Shown here: piece by piece, positions 2,935 through 19,632 of the stretch
How the letters are laid out: the number at the start of each line of letters is the position of its first letter
Position numbering within the stretch: position 1 is the stretch's first letter
Assembly: GCA_029213165.1 (NCBI GenBank)
Contig: JARGNO010000018.1
Location: 1-57,914, forward strand
DNA: 57,914 bases
Direction of reading: 5' to 3'
DNA from: Minwuia sp.
GTDB taxonomy: Bacteria; Pseudomonadota; Alphaproteobacteria; Minwuiales; Minwuiaceae
Made by a program: the position numbers and the translations under genes
Notes under the pieces: generated by a model
Told to the model about the DNA's origin: nothing
The model's input: only the letters and a program-made list of their open reading frames with translations
The model's database searches: none

Positions 2935-4191
2935 ATGAGCACAACACGCAGGACATTTCTGAAGGGCACGGCGGCAACCGCTGCCGTGCTTGCATCCCCG
3001 GGGATCATCGGCAAGGCAGCAGCCGCCGACAAGATCAAGCTGGTCAGCATCCTGGACCAGTCAGGCGGACTGGACATCTACGGCAAGCCCATGGTCGCGG
3101 CGACCGAAATGGCCGTGGACGACATCAACGCGGCGGGCGGCCTGCTGGGCCGTGAGGTCGAACTGAAGATGTACGACCCGCAGTCGTCCATCCAGTACTA
3201 CACCCAGTATGCGACGCAGGCTGCGGCCTCCGACCGTGCGGATGTGGTCCATGCCGGCATCACCTCCGCCTCGCGCGAAGCGATCCGTCCGACGCTGGAC
3301 CGTTTCAAGACGCTCTACTTCTACAACACGCAGTACGAAGGCGGCGTCTGCGACCGCAACGTCTTCTGCACCGGCTCCACCCCGGCCCATACGGTCGAGA
3401 AACTGGTGCCACACGCGATGAAGAAGTGGGGCAAGAAGGTCTATATCCTGGCCGCCGACTACAACTACGGCCAGATCATCGCCGACTGGGTCGAGAAGTT
3501 CGTGCGTGACGAGGGCGGCGAGACCGTCGCCACCGAATTCTTCCCGCTGGACGTGACCAACTTCGGCCCGACCATCCAGAAGATCCAGGCCGCGAAGCCT
3601 GACATGATCTGGTCTGCACTGGTGGGTGGCGCGCACATCTCCTTCTACCGCCAGTATGCGGCGGCGGGCATGCACAAGAGCGTTCCCATTGCATCGACCA
3701 CCTATGGCGTCGGCAACGAACATCAGCTGATGTCAGCCGAAGAAGGTGACGGCATCCTCTGCGCCTACAGCTACTTCGAGGAGATCGACACGCCGGAGAA
3801 CAAGGCCTTCGTCGAGCGCTTCCGTGCCCGAAACGGTGGCGCGGCGGCCCCTGCCCTGAACGAACTGGCGGTACGGTCCTATGAAGGCGTCATGCTCTGG
3901 GCCGAGGCGGTGCGCAATGCCGGATCGGTTGACCGGATGAAGGTGATCGAGGCACTGGAGGCCCCGACCATGATCGACGGTCCCAGCGGCGCCATTGCCA
4001 TCGAACCGACCACGCACCACGCGACCCTGAACACCTATATCGCACAGGTGAAGGGCCAGAAGTTCCAGGTGCAGGAGACCTTCCTGGCGCAGCAACCGAC
4101 GGACACCATGCAGGTCTGCGACCTGAAGGCCAATCCGGACACCGTGAAGTTCTACTTCGAGAACGGGCTGGAAGCTGCCGGCATCAAGTAA
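2935..4191 (+). CDS. amide/urea-type ABC transporter substrate-binding protein
   Basis: A 418-residue periplasmic binding protein of the Peripla_BP_5 (UrtA/FmdD/AmiC-like) group. The N-terminus carries a twin-arginine signal (MSTTRRTFLKGTAATAAVLA) and a likely cleavage site near AAAADK, so export by the Tat pathway is expected. The mature protein opens with IKLVSILDQSGGLDIYGKP, typical of the urea/amide-binding branch. It delivers ligand to the permeases encoded downstream. GGGAGCGGG lies before the ATG. A strong hairpin directly after the gene probably raises its mRNA level over the permease genes. Ligand is inferred as an amide or urea from family and from the linked amidase. Confidence 0.88.
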   Translation: MSTTRRTFLKGTAATAAVLASPGIIGKAAAADKIKLVSILDQSGGLDIYGKPMVAATEMAVDDINAAGGLLGREVELKMYDPQSSIQYYTQYATQAAASDRADVVHAGITSASREAIRPTLDRFKTLYFYNTQYEGGVCDRNVFCTGSTPAHTVEKLVPHAMKKWGKKVYILAADYNYGQIIADWVEKFVRDEGGETVATEFFPLDVTNFGPTIQKIQAAKPDMIWSALVGGAHISFYRQYAAAGMHKSVPIASTTYGVGNEHQLMSAEEGDGILCAYSYFEEIDTPENKAFVERFRARNGGAAAPALNELAVRSYEGVMLWAEAVRNAGSVDRMKVIEALEAPTMIDGPSGAIAIEPTTHHATLNTYIAQVKGQKFQVQETFLAQQPTDTMQVCDLKANPDTVKFYFENGLEAAGIK

Positions 4192-4306: not shown

Positions 4307-5176
4307 TTGGACCTCTACATCGCCCTGGCCCTGCAGATTGTTTATGGCATCGCCAATCTGGTGCTGATCTCGCTCGGGCTGGCCATCATCTTCGGCATGA
4401 TGCGGGTCATCAACCTGGCGCATGGCGAGTTCCTGATGCTCGGCGGCTATACCGTCGTCATCTCCACCAATGCCGGTGTGAACATCTGGCTGGCGATGCT
4501 GATCCTCGCCCCGCTGGTCGTCGGCGTCATCGGCGTGATCGTTGAGCGGGTGATGATCCGTTTCCTCTACGGACGCATGGTGGACACACTGCTTGCCACC
4601 TGGGGACTGTCACTGGTGCTGATCGGACTGGTCACCACCATCTTCGGCGCGCAGACCGCCACCACCATCTCGCCGCCCATCGGCGCCATCCAGATCGGCG
4701 ACTTCACGTCTTCCGGCTATGAGTTGTTCCTGATCGGCGTGACCGTCGTGCTGTCGGTCCTGGCCTATTGCGCGCTGAAGTACACCCGCATCGGGCTGAT
4801 CGCGCGAGGCACCATGCAGGGGGCGGAGATTGCCTCCGCCCTGGGTGTATCCACCAGCCGGACCTATGCCATCACCTTCGGCGTCGGCGCAGCCGTGTCC
4901 GGACTTGCCGGTGGCCTGCTGGCCCCCATCACCGGCGTGCTGCCCTCCATCGGCGCGACCTACATCGCCAAGGCCTTCATCACTGTCATTTCGGGCGGCA
5001 CCGCGATCCTGGCGGGCACCCTTTCGGCCTCCACCCTGCTGGGCGGCGTCAACTCGGTACTGAGCTACATCACCGGCCCGACAATCGGTGAAGTCGGGTT
5101 GCTGGTTGTCGCCATCGTGCTGCTGCGGCTGATGCCGCAGGGCATCACCGCACGCCTGTTCCGGAGAAGCCTGTGA
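4307..5176 (+). CDS. branched-chain/urea-type ABC transporter permease (UrtB/LivH-like)
   Basis: A 289-residue polytopic inner-membrane protein of the LivH/UrtB family. The early segment IIFGMMRVINLAHGEFLMLG is the family hallmark, and later hydrophobic helices extend to the C-terminus. It forms half of the transmembrane channel with the next gene product. The start is a TTG preceded by GAGGA ten bases upstream; no ATG gives the expected N-terminus. Its stop codon overlaps the GTG start of the next permease by 4 bp, indicating translational coupling. Confidence 0.9.
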   Translation: MDLYIALALQIVYGIANLVLISLGLAIIFGMMRVINLAHGEFLMLGGYTVVISTNAGVNIWLAMLILAPLVVGVIGVIVERVMIRFLYGRMVDTLLATWGLSLVLIGLVTTIFGAQTATTISPPIGAIQIGDFTSSGYELFLIGVTVVLSVLAYCALKYTRIGLIARGTMQGAEIASALGVSTSRTYAITFGVGAAVSGLAGGLLAPITGVLPSIGATYIAKAFITVISGGTAILAGTLSASTLLGGVNSVLSYITGPTIGEVGLLVVAIVLLRLMPQGITARLFRRSL

Positions 5177-6234
5177 ACCATGCACGGGAGAATTCCTGGC
5201 TGATCCTGATCGGCATTGTCGGCGCCATCTTCCTGATCGGCGCGCCACAGGTGCTGGAACTGTTCACCATCATCAACCTGACCACGGCCATCGCCATGGC
5301 ACTGCTGGCGCTCAGCCTCGGGTTGGTCTGGGGCTTCGGCGGCATCCTCTGCTTCGGTCAGTCGACCTTCTTCGGCATCGGGGCCTATGCCTATGTGGTT
5401 GCCGCGATCAATTTCGGCGGCACAAGCTGGGCCGTCGTCGTGGCGATCCTGGTCGCCGCCGCCTTTGCCGCCGTGCTGGGCTATTTCATGTTCTACGGTC
5501 GGGTTTCGGACGTCTATCTGGGCGTCATCACACTGACCGTCTCCCTGATCTTCTACAATCTGATGCGCCGCACCTCCGGCCCCGAATACAAGATCGGCGA
5601 TGCCCTGCTCGGCGGTTTCAACGGCATCAACGCACCACCGCTGAACGTGCCGGGCGACGCAAGCTGGATCCTGTTTCCCGAAGATGTCTTCTACGTCGCC
5701 ATGGCCGCGCTGATCATCGGCTACTTCGGCTGTGTCTGGCTGGTCCGGTCGCACTTCGGTCGCGTCGCAGTGGCCATTCGGGAGAATGAATTGCGGGCGG
5801 AACTGATCGGCTATGACGTACGCCTGCAGAAGCTGATCCTGTTCGCGGTCGGTGGCGGCATCGCCGGTGCGGCGGGCGTGCTGTTCGCAAACGGCGTGGG
5901 CCGGGTGACGCCGGATGTCTTCAACCTCTACAATGCGGCCCTGATCATCATCTGGGTCATCGTCGGCGGACGCGGCACGCTGATCGGGCCGATTCTCGGC
6001 GCTTTCGGGCTGTTCTATCTGATCAGTTCGCTGGGCCAGCAGACCTCCATCAACAACAATCTGGTGCTGGGGGTCATTCTGGTGGTCTTCGTGCTGCTGG
6101 TGCCGAAGGGCATCGTGCCAAGCGTCATCGACCTGTGGGACCGGAAGCGGGGCCGCCGGGGCCAGTTCAGACGCCATGGCCGACGCCAGCGCCGCCGCGG
6201 CGGACGGACAGCGGAGACCAGCCATGAAGGGTGA
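5173..6234 (+). CDS. branched-chain/urea-type ABC transporter permease (UrtC/LivM-like)
   Basis: A 353-residue permease of the LivM/UrtC family. It has many hydrophobic helices, a GLVWGFGGILCFGQSTFFG segment near the N-terminus and a family-typical VAIRENELRAELIGYDV cytoplasmic loop. The gene begins with GTG inside the stop of the preceding permease. Its C-terminal tail is Arg-rich (RKRGRRGQFRRHGRRQRRRG), and its end overlaps the start of the first ATPase gene by 11 bp. It is the second half of the membrane channel. Confidence 0.9.
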   Translation: MNHARENSWLILIGIVGAIFLIGAPQVLELFTIINLTTAIAMALLALSLGLVWGFGGILCFGQSTFFGIGAYAYVVAAINFGGTSWAVVVAILVAAAFAAVLGYFMFYGRVSDVYLGVITLTVSLIFYNLMRRTSGPEYKIGDALLGGFNGINAPPLNVPGDASWILFPEDVFYVAMAALIIGYFGCVWLVRSHFGRVAVAIRENELRAELIGYDVRLQKLILFAVGGGIAGAAGVLFANGVGRVTPDVFNLYNAALIIIWVIVGGRGTLIGPILGAFGLFYLISSLGQQTSINNNLVLGVILVVFVLLVPKGIVPSVIDLWDRKRGRRGQFRRHGRRQRRRGGRTAETSHEG

Positions 6235-6946
6235 AATCGTTGTCGAAACCCGTGGCCTGTCGATGCATTTCGGTGGTGTCGTCGCTGTTGACCAGGTGGA
6301 TTTCAACCTGCGCGAGAACGAGCTGCGCTGCCTGATTGGCCCCAATGGCGCGGGCAAGAGCACCTTCTTCAAGTGTCTGACCGGACAGTTGAAACCGACC
6401 TTTGGTGATGTCGTCATCCGCGACCTGAACGTCAACCGCGCCCACAGTCACGAGATCGCGGGACTGGGTGTCGGCATCAAGACCCAGGTGCCGAACGTGT
6501 TCGAGGGGCTGTCGGTGCAGGAGAACATCTGGCTCGCCGCCCGCCGGTTCCACCCCGCCGCCCGTGCCCGCAGCCTGGTCGAGGAAACCCTGGACCGCGT
6601 CCGGCTGACCGATATCCGGCGGGAGGTGGTGAACGAACTCAGCCACGGCCAGCGCCAGTGGGTGGAACTCGGCATGGTCATCTCGGCGGAGCCATGGCTG
6701 GTGCTGCTGGACGAACCGGCGGCCGGCATGACCCACGACGAAGTGCTGCTGACGGCGGAACTGATCCGGGAGATCAACAAGACCGCGTCCCTGATCGTGG
6801 TGGAGCATGACATGCAGTTCATCCGCATGATCGCGGACAAGGTCACCGTCTTCCATCGCGGTGCGATCCTGATCGAGGACACGATGGATGTTGTCGCGGC
6901 GGACCCGATGGTTCGCGAAGTCTATCTGGGACATCGGAAGAAATGA
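6224..6946 (+). CDS. ABC transporter ATPase (UrtD/LivG-like)
   Basis: A 240-residue ATPase of the LivG/UrtD type. Walker A is GPNGAGKST (39-47), the signature is [10 protein letters not shown], Walker B is [11 protein letters not shown], and the switch His is in [13 protein letters not shown] in place of LSGGQ is normal in this branch. The ATG at 6224 has GGAGA six bases upstream; an earlier in-frame ATG at 6176 would overlap the permease gene by 59 bp and lacks a clear ribosome-binding site. The next ATPase starts inside its stop (ATGA). Confidence 0.9.
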
Positions 6947-9345
6947 GCGCTGACAGCACGATCCTGAGCGCGAAGGGCCTGCGGGCCGGGTATGGCCGCG
7001 TGCCGGTGCTGCATGGCATCGACATGACCGTCGGCGACGGGGAGATCGTTGGTGTGCTGGGCCACAACGGCATGGGCAAGACCACCCTGCTGAAGACACT
7101 GTGCGGCATCATCCGCCCCACGGGCGGGCGCATCGACTTCGACGGCATGGACGTCACCCGCGAACCCGCCCACGCCCGCAGCCGCATGGGCATCGGCTAC
7201 GTCCCGCAGGGTCGCGGCATCTTTCCGACGCTGACCGTCACCGACAACCTGCGCATGGGGATCGTCAGCCACGCCGCGGACGAGCATGAGGCCGTGGAGC
7301 GGATGGTGGCGGAGTTTCCGCGCCTGGAACCGATGATGGATCGCGCCGGTGGCGCGCTCTCCGGCGGCGAGCAGCAGATCGTTGCCCTGGCGCGGTGCCT
7401 GATCAGCGACCCTGACCTGATCCTGCTGGACGAACCGACGGAAGGCATCCAGCCCTCCATCGTCGATGACATTGCCGAACTGCTGGCCAAGCTGCGCGAT
7501 GAACGCGGCATCTCCATCGTGCTGGTGGAACAGAACCTGGAGTTCATCACCGGTCTCTCCGACCGCATCCTGCTGCTGCAGAAGGGTGTGATCACCGGTG
7601 AAGTCGACAGCTCCAGCAACGACGCCGCCCTGATCGACGAATTCACCGGCTTCGGCGGTGGTGGCAATGGCAGCTACCGGCCACCGGTCGGGAAACCGTC
7701 AGCATCATCACCCGCCACACCAGGCGGGCAGAAAACGGACCAGGGCCCGTCACCGCGACATCCGTCACCGCGACATTCATCACCCCGTCAGGCAACAACA
7801 CGTTCGACGCCGATACAGGAGGCGATCTACATGACCGTTCAGCGACCGACCATGAAACAGATGCGGTCCATCGTCGAGGATTTCGGCATGAACATGTCGG
7901 ACGAGCGGATCCAGGAGTTCATGGATCTGATGGAACCGAACATGCAGGCCTATGACCTGATCGATTCCCTGCCGGACTACCTGCCGCCGGTCGATTATCC
8001 GCGGACTGCCGGATACCGTCCGGGACCGGACGAGAACCCGATGAACGCCTGGTACGTGAAGACGGAGGTCAAGGGTGCGCCGCGCGGGCCGCTGGCGGGC
8101 AAGACGGTGGTGCTGAAGGACAATGTCTGCCTCGCCGGAGTGCCGATGATGAATGGTGCCTCGACACTGAAGGGCTATGTGCCGGACGTGGACGCGACCA
8201 TCGTGACGCGCCTGCTGGACGCCGGGGCGACCATCGTCGGCAAGGCACATTGCGAATATTTCTGCCTCTCCGGCAGCAGCCACACCAACGCGACCGGCCC
8301 GGTGCACAACCCGCACCGGCGCGGACGCAGCGCGGGTGGCTCCTCCTCCGGCTCCGGCGCGCTGGTCGGCGCGGGTGAGGTGGACATGGCCATCGGCGGC
8401 GACCAGGGCGGCTCCATCCGGATGCCGGCCAGCTTCTGCGGCTGCTACGGCATGAAGGCAACGCACGGGTTGGTGCCCTATTCCGGCGTCATGCCGATCG
8501 AGAACACCATCGACCACACCGGCCCCATGACACAGAACGTGCATGACAATGCCCTGATGCTGGAGGCGATAGCCGGTGCCGACGGGCTGGACCCGCGCCA
8601 GTACGCACCGCAGGTGGACAACTACACGGCAGCGGTCAATCGCGGCGTCGGCGGCCTGCGCATCGGTGTGCTGAAGGAAGGCTTCGGGCGGGAGGAGTCG
8701 GAGCGTGACGTGGATGACGCCAACCGCGCCGCCGCCGAGCGGTTCCGCGAGATGGGCGCCACGGTCGATGAGGTCTCGATCCCCATGCACAACATGGGTC
8801 CGGCAATCTGGACCCCCATCGCGCTGGAGGGGCTGACCAACCAGATGATGAAGGGCAATGGCATGGGCACGGGCTGGGAAGGCCTGTATGTCACCAGCCT
8901 GCTCGACTTCCATTCCAACTGGCGTACCCGTGCCGATGAACTGTCAGACAGCCTGAAGATCTCCATGATGGTCGGCGAATACTTCCAGCGCCACTATCGC
9001 GGCCACTTCTATGCCAAGTCGCAGAACCTGGCGCGCAAGCTGCGGCTCGCCTACGACCAGATGCTGGGGGCCTATGACCTGCTGCTGATGCCCACGACAC
9101 CGATGAAGGCGACGCCGATCCCGGCACCTGACGCCTCGCTGGCCGAATACATCCAGCGCGCGTTCGAGGTGCTGAACAATACCGCCCCCTTCGACACCAC
9201 CGGCCATCCGGCCATGGCAATTCCCTGTGGCATGCATGACGGCCTGCCGATCTCCATGATGCTGGTCGGCAAGCATTACGCGGAAAGCACGATCTACCAG
9301 GCCGCCGGTGCGTTCGAACGTTCGGGCGACTGGCGCAAGATGTAA
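6943..9345 (+). CDS. UrtE/LivF-like ABC ATPase in frame with an amidase (possible fusion)
   Basis: One open frame of 800 residues joins two usually separate proteins. Residues 1-237 are a complete LivF/UrtE ATPase (Walker [10 protein letters not shown] 40-48; [20 protein letters not shown]). Residues 238-296 are a Gly/Pro/Ser-rich linker with three degenerate SPRH-type repeats. Residues 297-800 are a full amidase-signature enzyme with Lys392, the Ser cluster of GGSSSGSG, and nucleophile Ser491 in [11 protein letters not shown]. The amidase resembles enantioselective and nitrile-hydratase-linked amidases, which convert an amide to carboxylate and ammonia. It may be made as a fusion or as a separate protein from an internal site at 7831. 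A lost stop codon or sequencing error is the main alternative. Confidence 0.85.
7750..7794 (+). repeat. three degenerate 15-bp tandem repeats in the ATPase-amidase linker
   Basis: Three 15-bp units (7750-7764, 7765-7779, 7780-7794) share TCACCGCGACAT or close variants and encode [10 protein letters not shown] and SPRQA. They lie between the last ATPase residues and the amidase start. They could be a grown linker or former intergenic DNA that became readable. Confidence 0.7.
7817..7831 (+). promoter_or_regulatory. internal Shine-Dalgarno for the amidase
   Basis: AGGAGG (7817-7822) lies eight bases before an ATG at 7831. That ATG begins exactly where amidase homology begins ([15 protein letters not shown]). 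The match is near-perfect and better than most ribosome-binding sites in this window, which argues that the amidase can be translated on its own even though the frame is open from the ATPase. Confidence 0.7.
7831..9345 (+). CDS. amidase (alternative independent product of the fused frame)
   Basis: Read from the internal ATG, the product is a 504-residue amidase, a normal length for the family. Catalytic Lys96 lies in VVLKDNV, the cis-Ser region in GGSSSGSG (169-176), and Ser195 in QGGSIRMP. The N-terminal helical region before NPMNAWYV matches the enantioselective amidase type. The enzyme is cytoplasmic. The product acid would be a natural substrate for the acyl-CoA ligase that starts 2 bp downstream. 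This entry overlaps the fused reading frame and is offered as the alternative gene model. Confidence 0.6.
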
Positions 9346-9347
9346 TC

Positions 9348-11048
9348 ATGACAGCACCCGTCGGCGGCCTGTCCCATGTCCGAGGCGATACCGGACCCCG
9401 CCTGCGCCACGAAACCGTGTCCGGCCTGCTGGCCCGTGCGGTGCGCAAGTGGCCCGACCGCCCCGCTGCCGTCTTTGCCGATGCAGGCGTGCGCTGGACC
9501 TGGCGGGAACTGGATGTGCAGGTGGAGCGGTTGGCCGCCGGTCTGCTCTCCCTCGGCCTCTATCGCGGCGACCGGGTCGGCATCTGGTCACCGAACCGCC
9601 CCGAATGGCTGGTGGCCCAGTTCGCCACCGCACGGCTCGGCCTGATCCTTGTCAACATCAACCCCGCCTACCGCCTGTCGGAGCTGGAATATGCACTGAA
9701 CAAGGTGGGCTGCGCGGCGCTGATCACCGCCGTCCGGTTCAAGTCCTCCGACTACCTCGGCATGTTGCGGGAACTGGCCCCGGAACTCGCCAGCGATGCA
9801 CCCGGCCGCCTGAACGCGCAGCGCCTGCCCGCGCTGCGCTCCATCATCCAGACGGGCGAGCGCGAACAGCCGGGCATGTTCCGCTATCACACCATCATGG
9901 CGCGGGGCCGCCAGGCCTACCGCAGCCGGCTGGAGGGGCTTGAGGCACGGCTGAAACAGACCGATGCGATCAACATCCAGTTCACCTCCGGCACCACTGG
10001 CGCGCCGAAGGGGGCCACCCTCACGCACCGCAACATCGTCAACAACGGCCATTTCACCGGGCGGGGCATGGGCCTGACGGAGCAGGACAGGCTCTGCATC
10101 CCCGTGCCGCTCTATCATTGCTTCGGCATGGTGCTGGGCACTCTGGCCGCGACCGCGCATGGCGCCTGCATGGTGTTTCCCGGCGAAGCCTTTGACGCCC
10201 GCCAGACACTCGCGACCCTGGCGCGCGAACGCTGCACCGCGGTCCATGGCGTCCCCACCATGTTCCACGCCATGGTGCAGCATCCGGATTTCCGCCAGTT
10301 CGACCTGACTTCGCTCAGGACCGGCATCATGTCCGGAGCCCCCTGCCCGGTCAGCCTGATGCAGCGTGTGATGCGGGACATGCACGCCAGCGAGATCACC
10401 ATCGCCTACGGCATGACCGAGACTGCGCCGGTTTCCTTCCAGACATCGATCACAGACCCGGTGTCACGGCGCACCGGCACCGTCGGGCGAATTCAGCCCC
10501 ATGCGGAGGTGAAGATCGTCGATGAGGCCGGGCAGACCGTGCCGGTCGGGTCCGAAGGCGAGCTGTGCACCCGCGGCTACCTGGTCATGCAGGGCTATTG
10601 GGGCGACCCGGAACGCACAGCGGAATCCATCGACGCTGACGGCTGGATGCACACCGGTGACCTGGGCCGCTTCGACGCAGAAGGCCATGCCAACATCATC
10701 GGACGGGTGAAGGACATGGTGATCCGGGGTGGAGAAAATATCTACCCCGCCGAGATCGAGGAATTCCTGCGCCGCCACCCCGACATTGCCGATGTTCAGG
10801 TATTCGGCGTTCCCGACCCGAAGTACGGCGAGGAACTCTGCGCCTGGATCGTGCCGCGCGGTGGCGCGAAGGTCACAGCGGACAGCGTGCGCGACTTCTG
10901 CACCGACCAGATCGCCCACTTCAAGATCCCCCGCCACGTCCGCAATGTCCCCGAATTCCCCATGACCGTCACCGGCAAGGCCCGCAAGGTCGAGATGCGG
11001 GCTGCCATGATGCGGGAACTGGGGCTGAGCGAAGACCGGACGGCTTGA
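9348..11048 (+). CDS. AMP-forming acyl-CoA ligase of the amide operon
   Basis: A 566-residue member of the ANL adenylating family. The AMP-binding P-loop is FTSGTTGAPKGA (about 212-223), followed by YGMTETAP and GRVKDMVIRGGENIYPAEIE. A C-terminal lysine in the VTGKARK segment is in the place of the catalytic Lys. It joins a carboxylic acid to CoA through an acyl-adenylate. It starts 2 bp after the amidase stop, so it is probably translated with it. The context suggests it activates the acid released by the amidase, but chain length or aromaticity of that acid cannot be read from the sequence. Confidence 0.9.
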   Translation: MTAPVGGLSHVRGDTGPRLRHETVSGLLARAVRKWPDRPAAVFADAGVRWTWRELDVQVERLAAGLLSLGLYRGDRVGIWSPNRPEWLVAQFATARLGLILVNINPAYRLSELEYALNKVGCAALITAVRFKSSDYLGMLRELAPELASDAPGRLNAQRLPALRSIIQTGEREQPGMFRYHTIMARGRQAYRSRLEGLEARLKQTDAINIQFTSGTTGAPKGATLTHRNIVNNGHFTGRGMGLTEQDRLCIPVPLYHCFGMVLGTLAATAHGACMVFPGEAFDARQTLATLARERCTAVHGVPTMFHAMVQHPDFRQFDLTSLRTGIMSGAPCPVSLMQRVMRDMHASEITIAYGMTETAPVSFQTSITDPVSRRTGTVGRIQPHAEVKIVDEAGQTVPVGSEGELCTRGYLVMQGYWGDPERTAESIDADGWMHTGDLGRFDAEGHANIIGRVKDMVIRGGENIYPAEIEEFLRRHPDIADVQVFGVPDPKYGEELCAWIVPRGGAKVTADSVRDFCTDQIAHFKIPRHVRNVPEFPMTVTGKARKVEMRAAMMRELGLSEDRTA

Positions 11049-11127: not shown

Positions 11128-12792
11128 TTGCGACGCATCCGGGAAGCCAGTTTCTTGCCACCTCTCCATTTTGAGCCGGGTCACAGGATCACACCGCTGA
11201 TTGAGGCGGACGAGACCTTTGCGGCAATCGAGCAGGCTATCGAAACAGCCGAGCACGAGGTGCTGATGGCCTACTGGACCCTGGCGCCGCATCTGGCACT
11301 GGTCTCCGGCAAGAGGGGCAACTGGGAAGACCTGCTTGCGCGTGCGGCGCAACGCGGTGTCGCCTTCCGTATCCTGCTTGCCGACTTTGACCCGGTCTTC
11401 ACGGTCCAGCTGCACCGGGACGCATGGGAGACGTATCACCGGCTGCGGGCCATCGATTCACGCGATGAAGTCGTCGCGGGTACACTGCAGGCCGTCTGTT
11501 CGCGAAATCTGGCGACACCGAACCTGCCGGAAAGACTCGCGGGTCAGATCGTAGCCCGGTTCGAACTTCGCGAGATCGCGAGGCTGTTGAACAAGGAAGC
11601 GGAGGGCGACCGGGATACTGCCAGACAGATCGACCAGACCATTCCGGGGCTGTGGCATCATCTGAAATTGAATGGTTCCCGGTTTGACAAGGGACCAACT
11701 AGGTTGATCCGTCCCCTACCCGGCTCGCATCACGAAAAGCTATGCATTGTCGATCGGAAGACAGCCTTCACAGGTGGTCTGGATATCGGTGAGCGCCGCT
11801 ATGACACTGCAGACCATGAAGACGACACGCCTTGGCATGATCTCGCTTGCCGGGTTGAAGGGCCGGTGGTCGACAGCCTGTTGCGCCACTTCATCGAACG
11901 CTGGAATGCCGAGGTCGGCCAGTTTCGCACTTACATCGCGGAACTGCCGCAAAGACCCGGAATCGATGTCGGGCTGTCCGGCCAACTCTCGGAACTGAAG
12001 CCGCTGGAGTCCGTATCCACCGGGTCCGGCGGCATCGGTGAGGTCGCAACAGCATTTTCGCCTGTCCGCAACGGGCAGTCGATGGAGAGTGAGTGCGCCG
12101 ACATTGCCACCGCTGTTGCTTCGACAATCGGGGCGGCAAGAGAATTCATCTACATTGAAAGCCAGTACCTGCGGGAGGCACGCGTTGCTGATTGGCTGAT
12201 CCGTTCGGCAGAGCGTTACCCGGGCATTGAAATCATCGTATTGCTGCCCATCGCACCGGATCGTTTGAGCCCGGACGATGAATGGAGCAGTGCCACACGC
12301 CACGGCCACTGGCTGCAATGGCGCAATATCGAACGTCTGCGCCAGAGACTTGGCGCCCGTTTCGGGGTCTTCACCCTGCTCAGTCGTCAGCCACGAACAG
12401 ATGACGATGCACCGGAAGATACCGCCTTGGGTGCGCGCAGCATCTATGTTCACGCCAAGACAATCATCGTGGATGACGCCTTGGCCATGATCGGATCGGC
12501 AAACCTGAATGGCCGAAGCTTCTCACTCGATACCGAGACAGCACTGGTCTGGCGCGAAGCCGATGCGGTGCGGGACTTTCGCGAAAGGCTCTGGCGACAC
12601 CACCTCGAAGAGGCCATGCCCCCGGCATTCGACCCGAGAGAAGCATCGGGACTGGAACTGTGGAACCGGGTAGCCGCCGAGAACCAGCGCGCGGAGATCC
12701 AGGATCGCAAGGGTTTCATCGTCGAGTTCGCGCGCGAATGGGCGTCACGCAATGCCCGTCGGTCCAGACTGATCCGCAGCAGGTTCGTCTGA
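11128..12792 (+). CDS. phospholipase D-family protein
   Basis: A protein of about 554 residues with two HxKxxxxD motifs: HEKLCIVD (His202) and HAKTIIVD (His442), the second followed by GSANLNGRSF. Paired motifs form one active site in PLD-superfamily enzymes, including phospholipases, cardiolipin synthases and nucleases. No signal peptide or membrane helix is evident, so it is likely cytoplasmic or peripheral. The start is uncertain: an in-frame stop lies at 11104-11106, and the only candidate before the conserved region is TTG at 11128 with no good ribosome-binding site. It converges on the next gene. Confidence 0.82.
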   Translation: MRRIREASFLPPLHFEPGHRITPLIEADETFAAIEQAIETAEHEVLMAYWTLAPHLALVSGKRGNWEDLLARAAQRGVAFRILLADFDPVFTVQLHRDAWETYHRLRAIDSRDEVVAGTLQAVCSRNLATPNLPERLAGQIVARFELREIARLLNKEAEGDRDTARQIDQTIPGLWHHLKLNGSRFDKGPTRLIRPLPGSHHEKLCIVDRKTAFTGGLDIGERRYDTADHEDDTPWHDLACRVEGPVVDSLLRHFIERWNAEVGQFRTYIAELPQRPGIDVGLSGQLSELKPLESVSTGSGGIGEVATAFSPVRNGQSMESECADIATAVASTIGAAREFIYIESQYLREARVADWLIRSAERYPGIEIIVLLPIAPDRLSPDDEWSSATRHGHWLQWRNIERLRQRLGARFGVFTLLSRQPRTDDDAPEDTALGARSIYVHAKTIIVDDALAMIGSANLNGRSFSLDTETALVWREADAVRDFRERLWRHHLEEAMPPAFDPREASGLELWNRVAAENQRAEIQDRKGFIVEFAREWASRNARRSRLIRSRFV

Positions 12793-12817: not shown

Positions 12818-14065
12818 TTACAACGACACGCTCATTCCCTCTGCGGGTGCTGAACACCGAACCTTTGCCCCCTTCTCCGCTATCATCTCCGTCGCCATCC
12901 GCAGTTTCTCGTCGATGGCTGCGTCGTCCTGGGAGGGGTCATGGTGGTAGAGGCAGAGTTCGCGGACTTCCGCCTTGCAGGCCAGTTCGACGACCTGGCT
13001 GAGGCAGCTGTGGCCCCAGCCGACCTTCGACGCATATTCGTCGTCGGTGTAGGTGCTGTCGGTCACCAGCAGGTCCGAGCCACGCACGAAGTCGGCAAGC
13101 TGGTCCATGTACTCCGGCGAATGGTACTCGGAATCCGGCAGGAAAAGTTCGTTGTCGGTGATGTAGCAGAAGCTGCGTCCGCCATAGTCAACGCGGTAGC
13201 CCAGGCAGTATCCCGGATGCGACAGCAGCATGGTGCGGACCTTCAGCCCGGCCACGTCGTAGACCCCCTCCCGCAAGTCGCGGAAAGTGACCCGGGCGCC
13301 GAATTCGCGCACCGTGATCGGGAAGTAGGCCCCGTCCATCTGCGCCGAGACCAGGTCCCCGATGCCCATGGAGCCATGTGACGGCCCCAGAATCTCGTAG
13401 TCATTGCCGGTGACATACAGCGGCGCGAAGAACGGCAGGGCATTGATGTGGTCCCAATGCGGGTGGGAGATGAAGATCTTCCCCTCCGTCCGGGTCTTTC
13501 CGGCCTTCATCAGGCTGTCACCAACCTCCCGGATGCCGCTGCCGGCATCGAAGATGAAGAACTGGCCGCGCGGGAAGTTGAGCGTGATGCAGTTGGTCTG
13601 GCCACCGTATTTCAGACTGTCAGGCCCAGGCTTTGGCAGGGTGCCGCGCACGCCCCAGAATTTCACTTCAACGACATCGTTCAGGACGCGCTCCACCGTC
13701 TCGAGAAACACGTCGCTCTTGATCGGTTTCTGGATGAAGGCATCGGCACCGACCTCAAGCGCGCGACGGCGGTCATAGTCGAAGGCCTTGCCGGAAAAGA
13801 CGAAGATGCGGGTGTCGGCATGTGCTGGGTCTTCCCGCAGACGCTGGGTGAGTTCCAGCCCGTCCATGTCCGGCATCATGATGTCGGTGACTACGCCATC
13901 CGGCTTCTCGCGCCGGATCGCCTCCAGCCCTTCCAGGCTGGATTGAAAGACATCGACCGTATGACCGGCACGCTTCAGCAACGCTGCCGCATGACCTGCA
14001 GCAACCCGATCATCATCCACGATGATGAAACGGCGCTGTTCGCCTGCGCCCAGATCATCTGGCAC
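12818..14065 (-). CDS. response regulator fused to a metallo-beta-lactamase-fold domain
   Basis: A 415-residue two-domain protein. Residues 12-130 form a receiver domain with acidic residues VDDD, phosphoacceptor Asp61 (VTDIMMPDMDG) and Lys113 (IQKPIKS). Residues about 133-415 form an MBL-fold hydrolase beginning EVKFWGVRGTLP, with metal motif HPHWDH (201-206). Further His/Asp residues lie in LLSHPGYCLG, ITDNE and LYHHDP. The domain resembles RNase Z/class II phosphodiesterase-like MBL proteins. The architecture suggests a hydrolase controlled by phosphorylation. The GTG start has AGGAGGGG upstream. No histidine kinase is adjacent; the substrate is unknown. Confidence 0.88.
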   Translation of the reverse strand: MPDDLGAGEQRRFIIVDDDRVAAGHAAALLKRAGHTVDVFQSSLEGLEAIRREKPDGVVTDIMMPDMDGLELTQRLREDPAHADTRIFVFSGKAFDYDRRRALEVGADAFIQKPIKSDVFLETVERVLNDVVEVKFWGVRGTLPKPGPDSLKYGGQTNCITLNFPRGQFFIFDAGSGIREVGDSLMKAGKTRTEGKIFISHPHWDHINALPFFAPLYVTGNDYEILGPSHGSMGIGDLVSAQMDGAYFPITVREFGARVTFRDLREGVYDVAGLKVRTMLLSHPGYCLGYRVDYGGRSFCYITDNELFLPDSEYHSPEYMDQLADFVRGSDLLVTDSTYTDDEYASKVGWGHSCLSQVVELACKAEVRELCLYHHDPSQDDAAIDEKLRMATEMIAEKGAKVRCSAPAEGMSVSL

Positions 14066-17390: not shown

Positions 17391-17566
17391 GCACCGAAGC
17401 GTCTGACTTCATGGCTGCCAGACCGTTCTGGCGCGATCAGATCGCCCTTGCGGTACGGTTCTTGCTGATCCTAGTGTCACCAATCATCGAATACCGGTTG
17501 CCTTACCAAGATGCGGACCGGTGCCAGCAACAGGGAAAGCCGGACAGTGACTGAAGAGACCCTGAC

Positions 17567-18001
17567 ATGAGCGAGACCAGCGGCGATTTCGAGATCGGGG
17601 GGCGTGCGCCATCCCTGCAACAGGTCTTCGACAAGTGGCTGCAGGCCTTCGGCGGTGCCTGGCAGTCCGAAAGCGCCGAGGACATCACGGGATTGTTCGA
17701 CGCCGACGGGGCCTGGTTCGAAAGCCCTTTCGGGCCGCCGGTCGAGGGTACCGAGGCCATTCGCGCGCACTGGCAGAAAGCCTTGCAGGGTCAGGCGGAC
17801 ATCGTCTTCATGTATCGCATTCTGGCCACCAACGGGGACATGGGCGTTGCCCGTTGGGCCGCCCAGTACGATCTGGTCGAATCAGGCATTCGTGTCGAAT
17901 GTGACGGCATCATCGAATGCCGTCTGCTGGCCAATGGCACGGCGCGGGTTGCCCGCATCTGGTGGCACAACCGGGAAGCCCCGGCGCGAAAGGGCAACTG
18001 A
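17567..18001 (+). CDS. NTF2-like (SnoaL-type) domain protein
   Basis: A 144-residue single-domain protein. The helix LQQVFDKWLQAFGGAWQS, then LFDADGAWFESPFGPPVEG, then the strand-rich C-half ending VARIWWHNREAP fit the NTF2-like cone fold (SnoaL_2 group). Members are small enzymes or ligand-binding proteins; no catalytic role can be assigned. It stands alone, 101 bp before an acyl-CoA ligase on the same strand. Confidence 0.75.
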   Translation: MSETSGDFEIGGRAPSLQQVFDKWLQAFGGAWQSESAEDITGLFDADGAWFESPFGPPVEGTEAIRAHWQKALQGQADIVFMYRILATNGDMGVARWAAQYDLVESGIRVECDGIIECRLLANGTARVARIWWHNREAPARKGN

Positions 18002-18102
18002 GCACTCCGATCACCTGCCGCCTTGACGCTCCCCTGCGCCAATAGTGGCTTGCAACTCGTCCTGCCCAGCGCCATGACTCGGCCATCAGGGGAGGATTCT
18101 TC

Positions 18103-19632
18103 ATGACGATCAAGGTCTACGACTGGCTGGAACACCACGCGATGTTCCGCGGCGAACATACGGCGCTGATTGATCTGGCGAGTGACCGCCGGTTTTCCTA
18201 CATCGAAACCAATGAACGCACGGGCCGTCTGGCAAGCTGGCTGTCCCGTGATCTCGGCGTGCAGAAGGGTGATCGCGTCGCCGTGCTGGCCCCCAACACC
18301 ACGGATGTCGTGGAGGTCCAGTTCGCCTGCGCCAAGCTGGGTGCGGTCATGGTGCCGCTCAACTGGCGGCTGACCGTCTCGGAACTCAGTTTCATCACTT
18401 CCGATTCCACCCCGAAGGTCCTGGTGCACGGCAACGAGTTCGCGGATACGGCGCGCGCGGTGGCCGAGAAAGTCGGCATTCCGCACGTCGTCGAGACCAC
18501 ATGCGACGGCGGCGACAGCCCCTTTGAACGCGGCATTGCCAGTCACCCCGACCCGACACCCATGGTGGAACTGACCCACGACGACCTCTGGACCATCATG
18601 TACACCTCCGGCACCACGGGCCTGCCCAAGGGTGCGATGATCACCCACGGAATGACGTTCTGGAATACGGTGAACCTGGGCTCGCCCCACCGCATCACAC
18701 CTGACGCGGTGCAATTGACGGTCCTGCCGCTGTTCCATACCGGCGGCCTGAACTGCTACACCAATCCGGTCATCCATGCAGGCGGCACGGTCCTGATCAT
18801 GCGCACCTTCGATCCGATGACCGGCCTGAAGCTGCTTGGTGATCCGGAATACGGGATCACCCACTTCTTCGGTGTGCCCGCCAACTATCAGTTCATGGCG
18901 CAACTGGATGAATTCCCCGACACCGATCTCTCGACAGTTCAGGTCGCGGGCGTCGGCGGCGCTCCGGTTCCGGTCTCGCTTCTGGAGACATGGGCGGCCC
19001 GTGGCCTGGGTCTCGCCCAGGGCTTTGGCATGACGGAGACCAGCCCCACCGTTCTGGTACTCGACGCCGGGGACGCCATGACACGCCCGGGTTCCGCCGG
19101 CAAACCGGCGCTGCACAATCAGGTCCGCATCGTTGACCCGGACGGCAACGACCTGCCGGTGGGAGAGATCGGTGAACTCTGGTGCAAGGGTCCCAATATC
19201 ACCCCCGGCTACTGGAACCGGCCGGAAGCGACAGAGGCCGCGATCCGGGATGGCTGGCTGAATACCGGCGACGCATCGCGCTGCGACGCGGATGGCTTCT
19301 ACTTCATCGTCGACCGCACCAAGGACATGTACATCTCCGGCGGCGAGAACGTCTATCCGGCGGAGGTGGAGAACGTGATCTATCGCCTCGACGGTATCGC
19401 CGAAGCCGCCGTCATCGGCCTGCCCGACGACAAATGGGGGGAGATCGGCTGCGCGGTGATCGTGCTGAAGAAGGGCGCGGAGCTTTCTCCGGATACGCTG
19501 ACGGCCTATTGCCGCGAGCATCTGGCGACCTTCAAGGTGCCGCGCCGTGTCGAGTTCGTCCAGGCCCTGCCCCGCAATGCCACCGGCAAGGTGCTGAAAC
19601 GCACGTTGAGGGACGATTTCGCGGCAGCCTGA
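18103..19632 (+). CDS. AMP-forming acyl-CoA ligase (second copy type)
   Basis: A 509-residue ANL-family ligase. The P-loop is MYTSGTTGLPKGAMITH (from residue 166), followed by FGMTETSPT, DGWLNTGDASR and RTKDMYISGGENVYPAEVE. The C-terminal NATGKVLKRTLR carries the catalytic Lys. It is clearly diverged from the ligase of the amide operon, so the two probably act on different acids. GGGGAGG precedes the ATG at good spacing. A medium- or long-chain fatty acid is the usual substrate in this group; specificity cannot be read here. Confidence 0.9.
   Translation: MTIKVYDWLEHHAMFRGEHTALIDLASDRRFSYIETNERTGRLASWLSRDLGVQKGDRVAVLAPNTTDVVEVQFACAKLGAVMVPLNWRLTVSELSFITSDSTPKVLVHGNEFADTARAVAEKVGIPHVVETTCDGGDSPFERGIASHPDPTPMVELTHDDLWTIMYTSGTTGLPKGAMITHGMTFWNTVNLGSPHRITPDAVQLTVLPLFHTGGLNCYTNPVIHAGGTVLIMRTFDPMTGLKLLGDPEYGITHFFGVPANYQFMAQLDEFPDTDLSTVQVAGVGGAPVPVSLLETWAARGLGLAQGFGMTETSPTVLVLDAGDAMTRPGSAGKPALHNQVRIVDPDGNDLPVGEIGELWCKGPNITPGYWNRPEATEAAIRDGWLNTGDASRCDADGFYFIVDRTKDMYISGGENVYPAEVENVIYRLDGIAEAAVIGLPDDKWGEIGCAVIVLKKGAELSPDTLTAYCREHLATFKVPRRVEFVQALPRNATGKVLKRTLRDDFAAA

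Follow-up and report, generated by a model that had tools for sequence, protein, structure and literature searches.

An ATPase and an amidase in one reading frame

The ATPases of importers and the enzymes of catabolism are, as a rule, made as separate proteins, tied to each other by the operon only. The window analysed here, i.e. the whole stretch of 57,914 nucleotides of Minwuia sp. contig JARGNO010000018.1, contains an importer operon in which the second ATPase gene runs on in frame into an amidase. The genes and features of this operon are as follows:

1229–2857, + strand: flotillin with Band_7 and Flot domains (PF15975, PF01145)
2935–4191, + strand: substrate-binding protein of the amide/urea-binding type with TAT-type signal (PF13458, PF13433, PF10518)
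4307–5176, + strand: permease B, UrtB/LivH type (PF02653)
5173–6234, + strand: permease C, UrtC/LivM type (PF02653)
6176–6946, + strand (start of the mechanical ORF): first ATPase, UrtD/LivG type (TIGR03411, 254.3 bits, under cut-off)
6943–9345, + strand: ATPase-amidase fusion gene, from ATG at 6943 to a stop ending at 9345, 800 aa, no internal stop
6943–7650, + strand: ATPase domain, UrtE/LivF type, residues 1–236, with Walker A, Q-loop, LSGGE, Walker B and a Gln at the switch position
7651–7830, + strand: linker, residues 237–296 (60 aa), rich in Pro, Ser, Ala, Thr and Arg, modelled as disordered
7747–7761 and 7762–7776, + strand: two exact copies of a 15-bp tandem repeat in the linker
7817–7822, + strand: AGGAGG, Shine-Dalgarno-like, 8 nt before the internal ATG
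7831–9345, + strand: amidase domain and, putatively, free amidase with a start of its own, 504 aa, with Lys96, Ser171 and Ser195 of the domain
9348–11048, + strand: acyl-CoA ligase (PF00501, PF13193; PRK12583, 829.8 bits, just under the cut-off of 832)

The ATG of the fusion gene overlaps the stop codon of the upstream ATPase gene (ATGA), which ends at 6946. The initial annotation had described an ATPase, a 60-residue linker and a complete amidase in a single stop-free frame, and the 800 codons of 6943–9345 bear this out. The strong ribosome-binding site and ATG that it placed exactly at the amidase start were also recovered, whereas of its three 15-bp repeats only two are exact, the third agreeing at just 10 of 15 positions when compared by eye. 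In profile searches of the 800-aa protein, ABC_tran covered residues 23–166 and Amidase (PF01425) residues 373–784, and the UrtE profile TIGR03410 matched residues 9–233 with 261.8 bits, under its cut-off of 285.8. With Walker A, Walker B and LSGGE all present, the N-terminal half is an ABC ATPase of the LivF/UrtE type; the C-terminal half belongs to the amidase family PRK07235 (NF005565), with 819.7 bits against a cut-off of 545, and position 1 of this profile falls on residue 297, the methionine encoded at 7831. A structural model of the protein features two well-folded domains, of which the amidase matches 3a1k (TMt 0.92) and the ATPase 1ji0 (TMt 0.89), with residues 236–297 at pLDDT values under 50.

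The binding protein, two permeases and two ATPases found together in one operon make up an importer of the HAAT type. Urea and short-chain amide importers of this family (UrtABCDE, FmdDEF) have the same parts, namely a Peripla_BP_6 protein, two BPD_transp_2 permeases and two ATPases, but here an amidase is attached to the second ATPase. Identification as the urea transporter UrtABCDE itself was rejected, as all five components score under their NCBIfam cut-offs (351.1/494.8, 242.2/374.25, 266.4/575.55, 254.3/304.1 and 261.8/285.8). The nearest solved chains of the binding protein are 8tg1, the urea-binding 7s6e and AmiC (1pea). On the enzyme side, the amidase of Rhodococcus sp. N-771 (3A1I/3A1K) is 46% identical over about 500 aligned columns and has the same Lys, Ser and Ser residues, which we take to be the catalytic triad; the Rhodococcus enzyme, presumably oligomeric and linked with nitrile hydratase, differs from the present one in that the latter is fused to an ATPase and shares its operon with an acyl-CoA ligase. 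The ligase gave no match to solved structures at 1e-90. On plasmid pTM2 of Tistrella mobilis, this importer is encoded with ATPase and amidase as two genes (locus L122, 4152–10515), and nitrile hydratase genes lie about 7 kb beyond them (17450–19175).

Distribution and origin of the fused gene

A scan with the fused query gave 258 confirmed relatives, the best 80 of which were used together with samples; fused loci are over-represented in this set. Both domains were found in order at 85 loci (duplicates included, two minus-strand loci uncounted), with a continuous frame in 82 and a split one in 3. Scan relatives together with further genome and plasmid loci, minus six duplicates, gave 86 non-redundant fused loci, two of which (L069 and L091) are cut by contig ends. 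By record title, these are distributed over Alpha- (47), Beta- (18) and Gammaproteobacteria (8), the window's own genus or class (11), one record that bears the label SAR324 (listed in the name table under Deltaproteobacteria) and one Sulfitobacter plasmid; many are metagenome bins, the taxonomic labels of which may be wrong. A search of related genomes for a stop codon between the two domains, as the initial annotation had advised, revealed an open fusion in six of seven genomes of the genus, own genome included, and no stop in any of the 86 linkers. The remaining genome of the genus (G002, locus L173) lacks the fusion; its importer operon is ordered differently and its separate amidase is 62% identical.

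Abundance was gauged in genome samples. Among 385 evenly sampled genomes of the class, 46 had an amidase match at an E value of 1e-150 or better, and 11 of these, three in the own genus, contained full fusions; among 398 genomes of the phylum, 21 had such a match, with an open fusion in the own genome only. With proportions of 11/46 and 1/21, only a minority of these amidases occur in fused form. Public annotation conceals the fusion: two complete Sulfitobacter plasmids list the entire fused gene as one CDS under the bare name amidase. No description of an ATPase-amidase fusion of this form was found in titles and opening abstracts of the open-licence PMC literature, among the matches listed.

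Both halves appear intact throughout. LSGGE and the Asp-Glu of Walker B are kept in all 86 fused loci, the Walker A Lys in 85 of 86 (the remaining row is cut by a contig end), and the catalytic Lys/Ser/Ser in 85 of 85 fused amidases. The switch His is replaced by Gln in 86 of 86 fused ATPases, which we presume to be usual for LivF.

In a tree of 136 amidases, obtained by a quick method with SH-aLRT support only, the 86 fused rows form a single clade (SH-aLRT 97) together with L103, a locus whose contig ends shortly before the amidase. Outside this clade lie the unfused amidases: 21 follow closely on an ATPase gene, 26 do not within the available stretch, and 2 are cut by an edge. No reversal to separate genes was seen among the 86 loci of the fused clade. 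Multiple independent fusions were considered and set aside, since a single clade of 86 fused rows and one contig-cut row is more simply explained by one origin. The tree thus suggests that the two genes were likely neighbours in an operon before they fused once, and that the fusion has been kept since. At three unfused loci (L158, L163 and L174), two amidase genes of the PRK07235 family were noted within a few kb.

Linker evolution and the putative internal amidase start

Linkers range from 28 to 124 residues in length (median 60, n = 86) and are rich in Ala, Pro, Ser, Thr and Arg across the fused loci. The coding frame is free of stops in all 86, whereas the other two frames are interrupted in 43 and 33 of 86, respectively, and the mean fraction of shuffled linkers that remain open is 0.346. 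A comparison of 17 near pairs, some of them not independent, gave pN/pS values of 0.51 in the linker, 0.06 in the ATPase and 0.05 in the amidase, with a linker dN of up to 0.60. To judge from these sequence comparisons, the linkers change fast yet evolve as protein. A linker that is free to drift but never stops, across classes of Proteobacteria, suggests selection for a tethering of transport to catalysis.

Next to this hypervariable sequence, all 86 fused loci have an in-frame ATG no more than two codons away from the amidase start in the alignment. The mean energy of the duplex with the anti-Shine-Dalgarno (SD) sequence is −6.46 at this junction ATG, whereas the 2700 other in-frame ATGs in these genes average −2.30; values at or below −5 occur at 68/86 and 424/2700 of these sites, respectively. 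The junction SD ranks first within its frame at 25 of the 86 loci and in the top tenth at 49; in the window, at −10.3, it exceeds those of all 40 other in-frame internal ATGs of the gene. Separate amidase genes start with a stronger SD still (−8.62, with 21 of 21 at or below −5). Moreover, codon usage for arginine is skewed at the junction: AGG or AGA accounts for 39 of 50 Arg codons within the last six codons before the start and 263 of 4010 elsewhere, and with one row per 85% cluster the count is 13 of 22 Arg codons in 39 clusters. The fused gene thus has the make-up of a gene with an internal in-frame start, with a conserved start codon and an SD inside the frame, the SD being weak or missing in 18 of 86 loci in which the ATG is still present.

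Synonymous recoding gave a more divided result. Tested one by one against recoding of seven codons, no more than 10 of the 86 loci have an SD that stands out at p<0.05, and the window is not among them (p = 0.587), because its Gln-Glu-Ala codons yield GGAGG anyway. Pooled over loci, the shift in SD is clear (Wilcoxon 6e-14, rows not independent). The divergent sub-clade formed by L100, L101, L102 and L121, in which the junction ATG is kept and the SD is weak, provides a natural contrast regarding the need for a free amidase.

The initial annotation had proposed that the cell could make a fusion, a free amidase, or both. The frame open in 86/86 loci, the ATG in 86/86, the SD in 68/86 and the AGG/AGA skew lend support to this proposal, and most likely a free amidase is made from the same gene besides the transporter-tethered one. 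It may be absent in the 18 loci with weak or no SD. A comparable arrangement is known for cas8b, an internal start of which yields the short product Cas11b (PMC11899642). In both cases an internal methionine is preceded by an SD-like site and the short product corresponds to the C-terminal part, but Cas11b was detected by mass spectrometry, whereas the short amidase is deduced from sequence. Among the matches listed in the open-licence PMC literature, no transporter or enzyme with an internal start of this form was found.

Operon partners and proposed working of the fusion

The open fused frame, its single clade, the protein-like linker, the intact motifs in both halves, the conserved internal ATG and the SD codon signature are computed observations. 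We read them as a true fusion, kept since a single origin, which would provide an importer-tethered amidase and, in most lineages, a free amidase from the internal start, and we assign this reading a probability of about 0.7. The ATPase half would pair with the separate UrtD-type ATPase and drive an ABC importer, presumably for substrates of the amide or urea type. The amidase half, held on its flexible linker, would then hydrolyse the imported amide at the membrane, and the acyl-CoA ligase of the operon would activate the resulting acid to its CoA ester. Ribosomes would also initiate at the internal SD and ATG in most lineages, the window's included, and the free amidase produced in this way would put enzyme in excess over transporter; free subunits may join tethered ones and so complete mixed oligomers. 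Such a fusion offers a genetically simple system for the study of substrate channelling at a transporter.

Other readings of the gene were weighed against these data. As the window stems from a draft genome of 120 contigs, one might suspect an error of sequencing or assembly, or an intergenic gap that happens to be open. This is ruled out for practical purposes by independent assemblies from several classes, in which the frame is open as well, and by its annotation as one CDS in the two complete Sulfitobacter plasmids. A post-translational cut in the linker, with separate ATPase and amidase as the working parts, appears improbable as well. A disordered, fast-evolving linker such as the one modelled here would be accessible to proteases, but no conserved site is visible in linkers so variable in length and sequence, and a stop codon would have served equally, yet none arose among 86 loci. 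It is less improbable, but still unlikely, that the full-length protein is the sole product and that the junction ATG and SD-like codons are a relic or serve the N-terminus of the amidase. The weak SD in 18 of 86 open frames, including the clade of L100–L102 and L121, and the mostly non-significant synonymous tests at single loci would fit such a situation. Against it stand the invariant methionine and the rare Arg codons AGG and AGA at SD distance (39/50 vs 263/4010) in a linker otherwise strongly diverged, in which a relic should have decayed. The combination of tethered and free amidase is therefore preferred.

The genes around the fusion are strongly conserved. Counting fused loci with room for the gene or with a match, permease B is present in 68 of 68, permease C in 80 of 80, the first ATPase in 83 of 83, the binding protein in 63 of 64 and the ligase in 79 of 85, with flotillin adjacent in 60 of 61; the second ATPase of the operon is the fused one in each fused locus seen. 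At one exceptional locus (L090), flotillin, binding protein and ligase are all missing in the available stretch. No flotillin was found at 21 unfused loci, four of which extend only about 1.5–1.9 kb beyond the binding protein. As for the ligase, a weak match (31%) adjoins unfused locus L159, and one is found at a great distance from L167.

In the window, the mechanical ORF of the flotillin starts at a TTG at 1151; the ATG at 1229, followed by a hydrophobic N-terminal stretch, was chosen as start. The protein has the Band_7 and Flot domains common to bacterial flotillins of the YqiK/FloT type and is the only Flot-domain match in its own genome. A branch with support of 100 separates the operon flotillins from 10 others. 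The operon form heads an importer operon, whereas the flotillins of two plasmid records adjoin a YqiJ or OB-fold protein (in the search of plasmids only some 40% of the query was covered, probably because low-complexity sequence was masked). An NfeD/YuaF-type partner gene beside flotillin is given as a family trait in PMC2636767; in the window, flotillin has as neighbours the binding protein, an ORF that matches no Pfam family and, on the opposite strand, an ORF of the GST type.

It is thus conceivable that these proteins form a membrane-bound assembly line in which a dedicated flotillin gathers the importer with its flexibly tethered amidase, free amidase fills up the enzyme oligomers, and the ligase converts the product to a CoA thioester and so traps it, and if so the amide would be captured, hydrolysed and activated at the point of cell entry. 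This extended scheme is put forward tentatively, as it may well prove wrong. Flotillin and ligase could instead be mere neighbours and the fusion unrelated to membrane microdomains, a view that we hold to be a serious contender, not far short of even odds. Genes that lie together need not encode proteins that interact, it is disputed what part flotillins play in the formation of functional clusters (PMC8656257), and flotillin is the fastest-diverging operon protein checked (42–63%), with long tree branches. On the other hand, mere neighbourhood would have to account for the presence of flotillin in 60/61 fused and 0/21 unfused loci, and for an operon flotillin that is a lineage of its own. Such strict pairing with a separate flotillin lineage points to a flotillin with a predicted single client, of relevance to the disputed function of bacterial flotillins.

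Beyond the ligase, conservation is limited. Genes for SDR, a second amidase, and isochorismatase-type, ABM and FmdA-type proteins recur as a minority 3′ of the ligase, each in 9 to 13 fused loci; these counts are rough, since quick ORF calling took in antisense ORFs, and these downstream minority genes of the fused loci gave no firm answer on the substrate. In the window, a PLD-type protein is encoded 3′ of the ligase (11128–12792, + strand), and was placed outside the module because no counterpart turned up in the 68 fused loci that had space for it. The following gene (12818–14065, − strand) encodes a Response_reg domain joined to a Lactamase_B_2 (metallo-beta-lactamase-type) domain. At the other end of the operon, three Roseobacteraceae plasmids (L121, 1689–3332; L177, 1–1323; L178, 415–2065) carry genes for a MarR-type regulator and a protein with a substrate-binding domain just 5′ of flotillin, which perhaps represent an amide-sensing pair.
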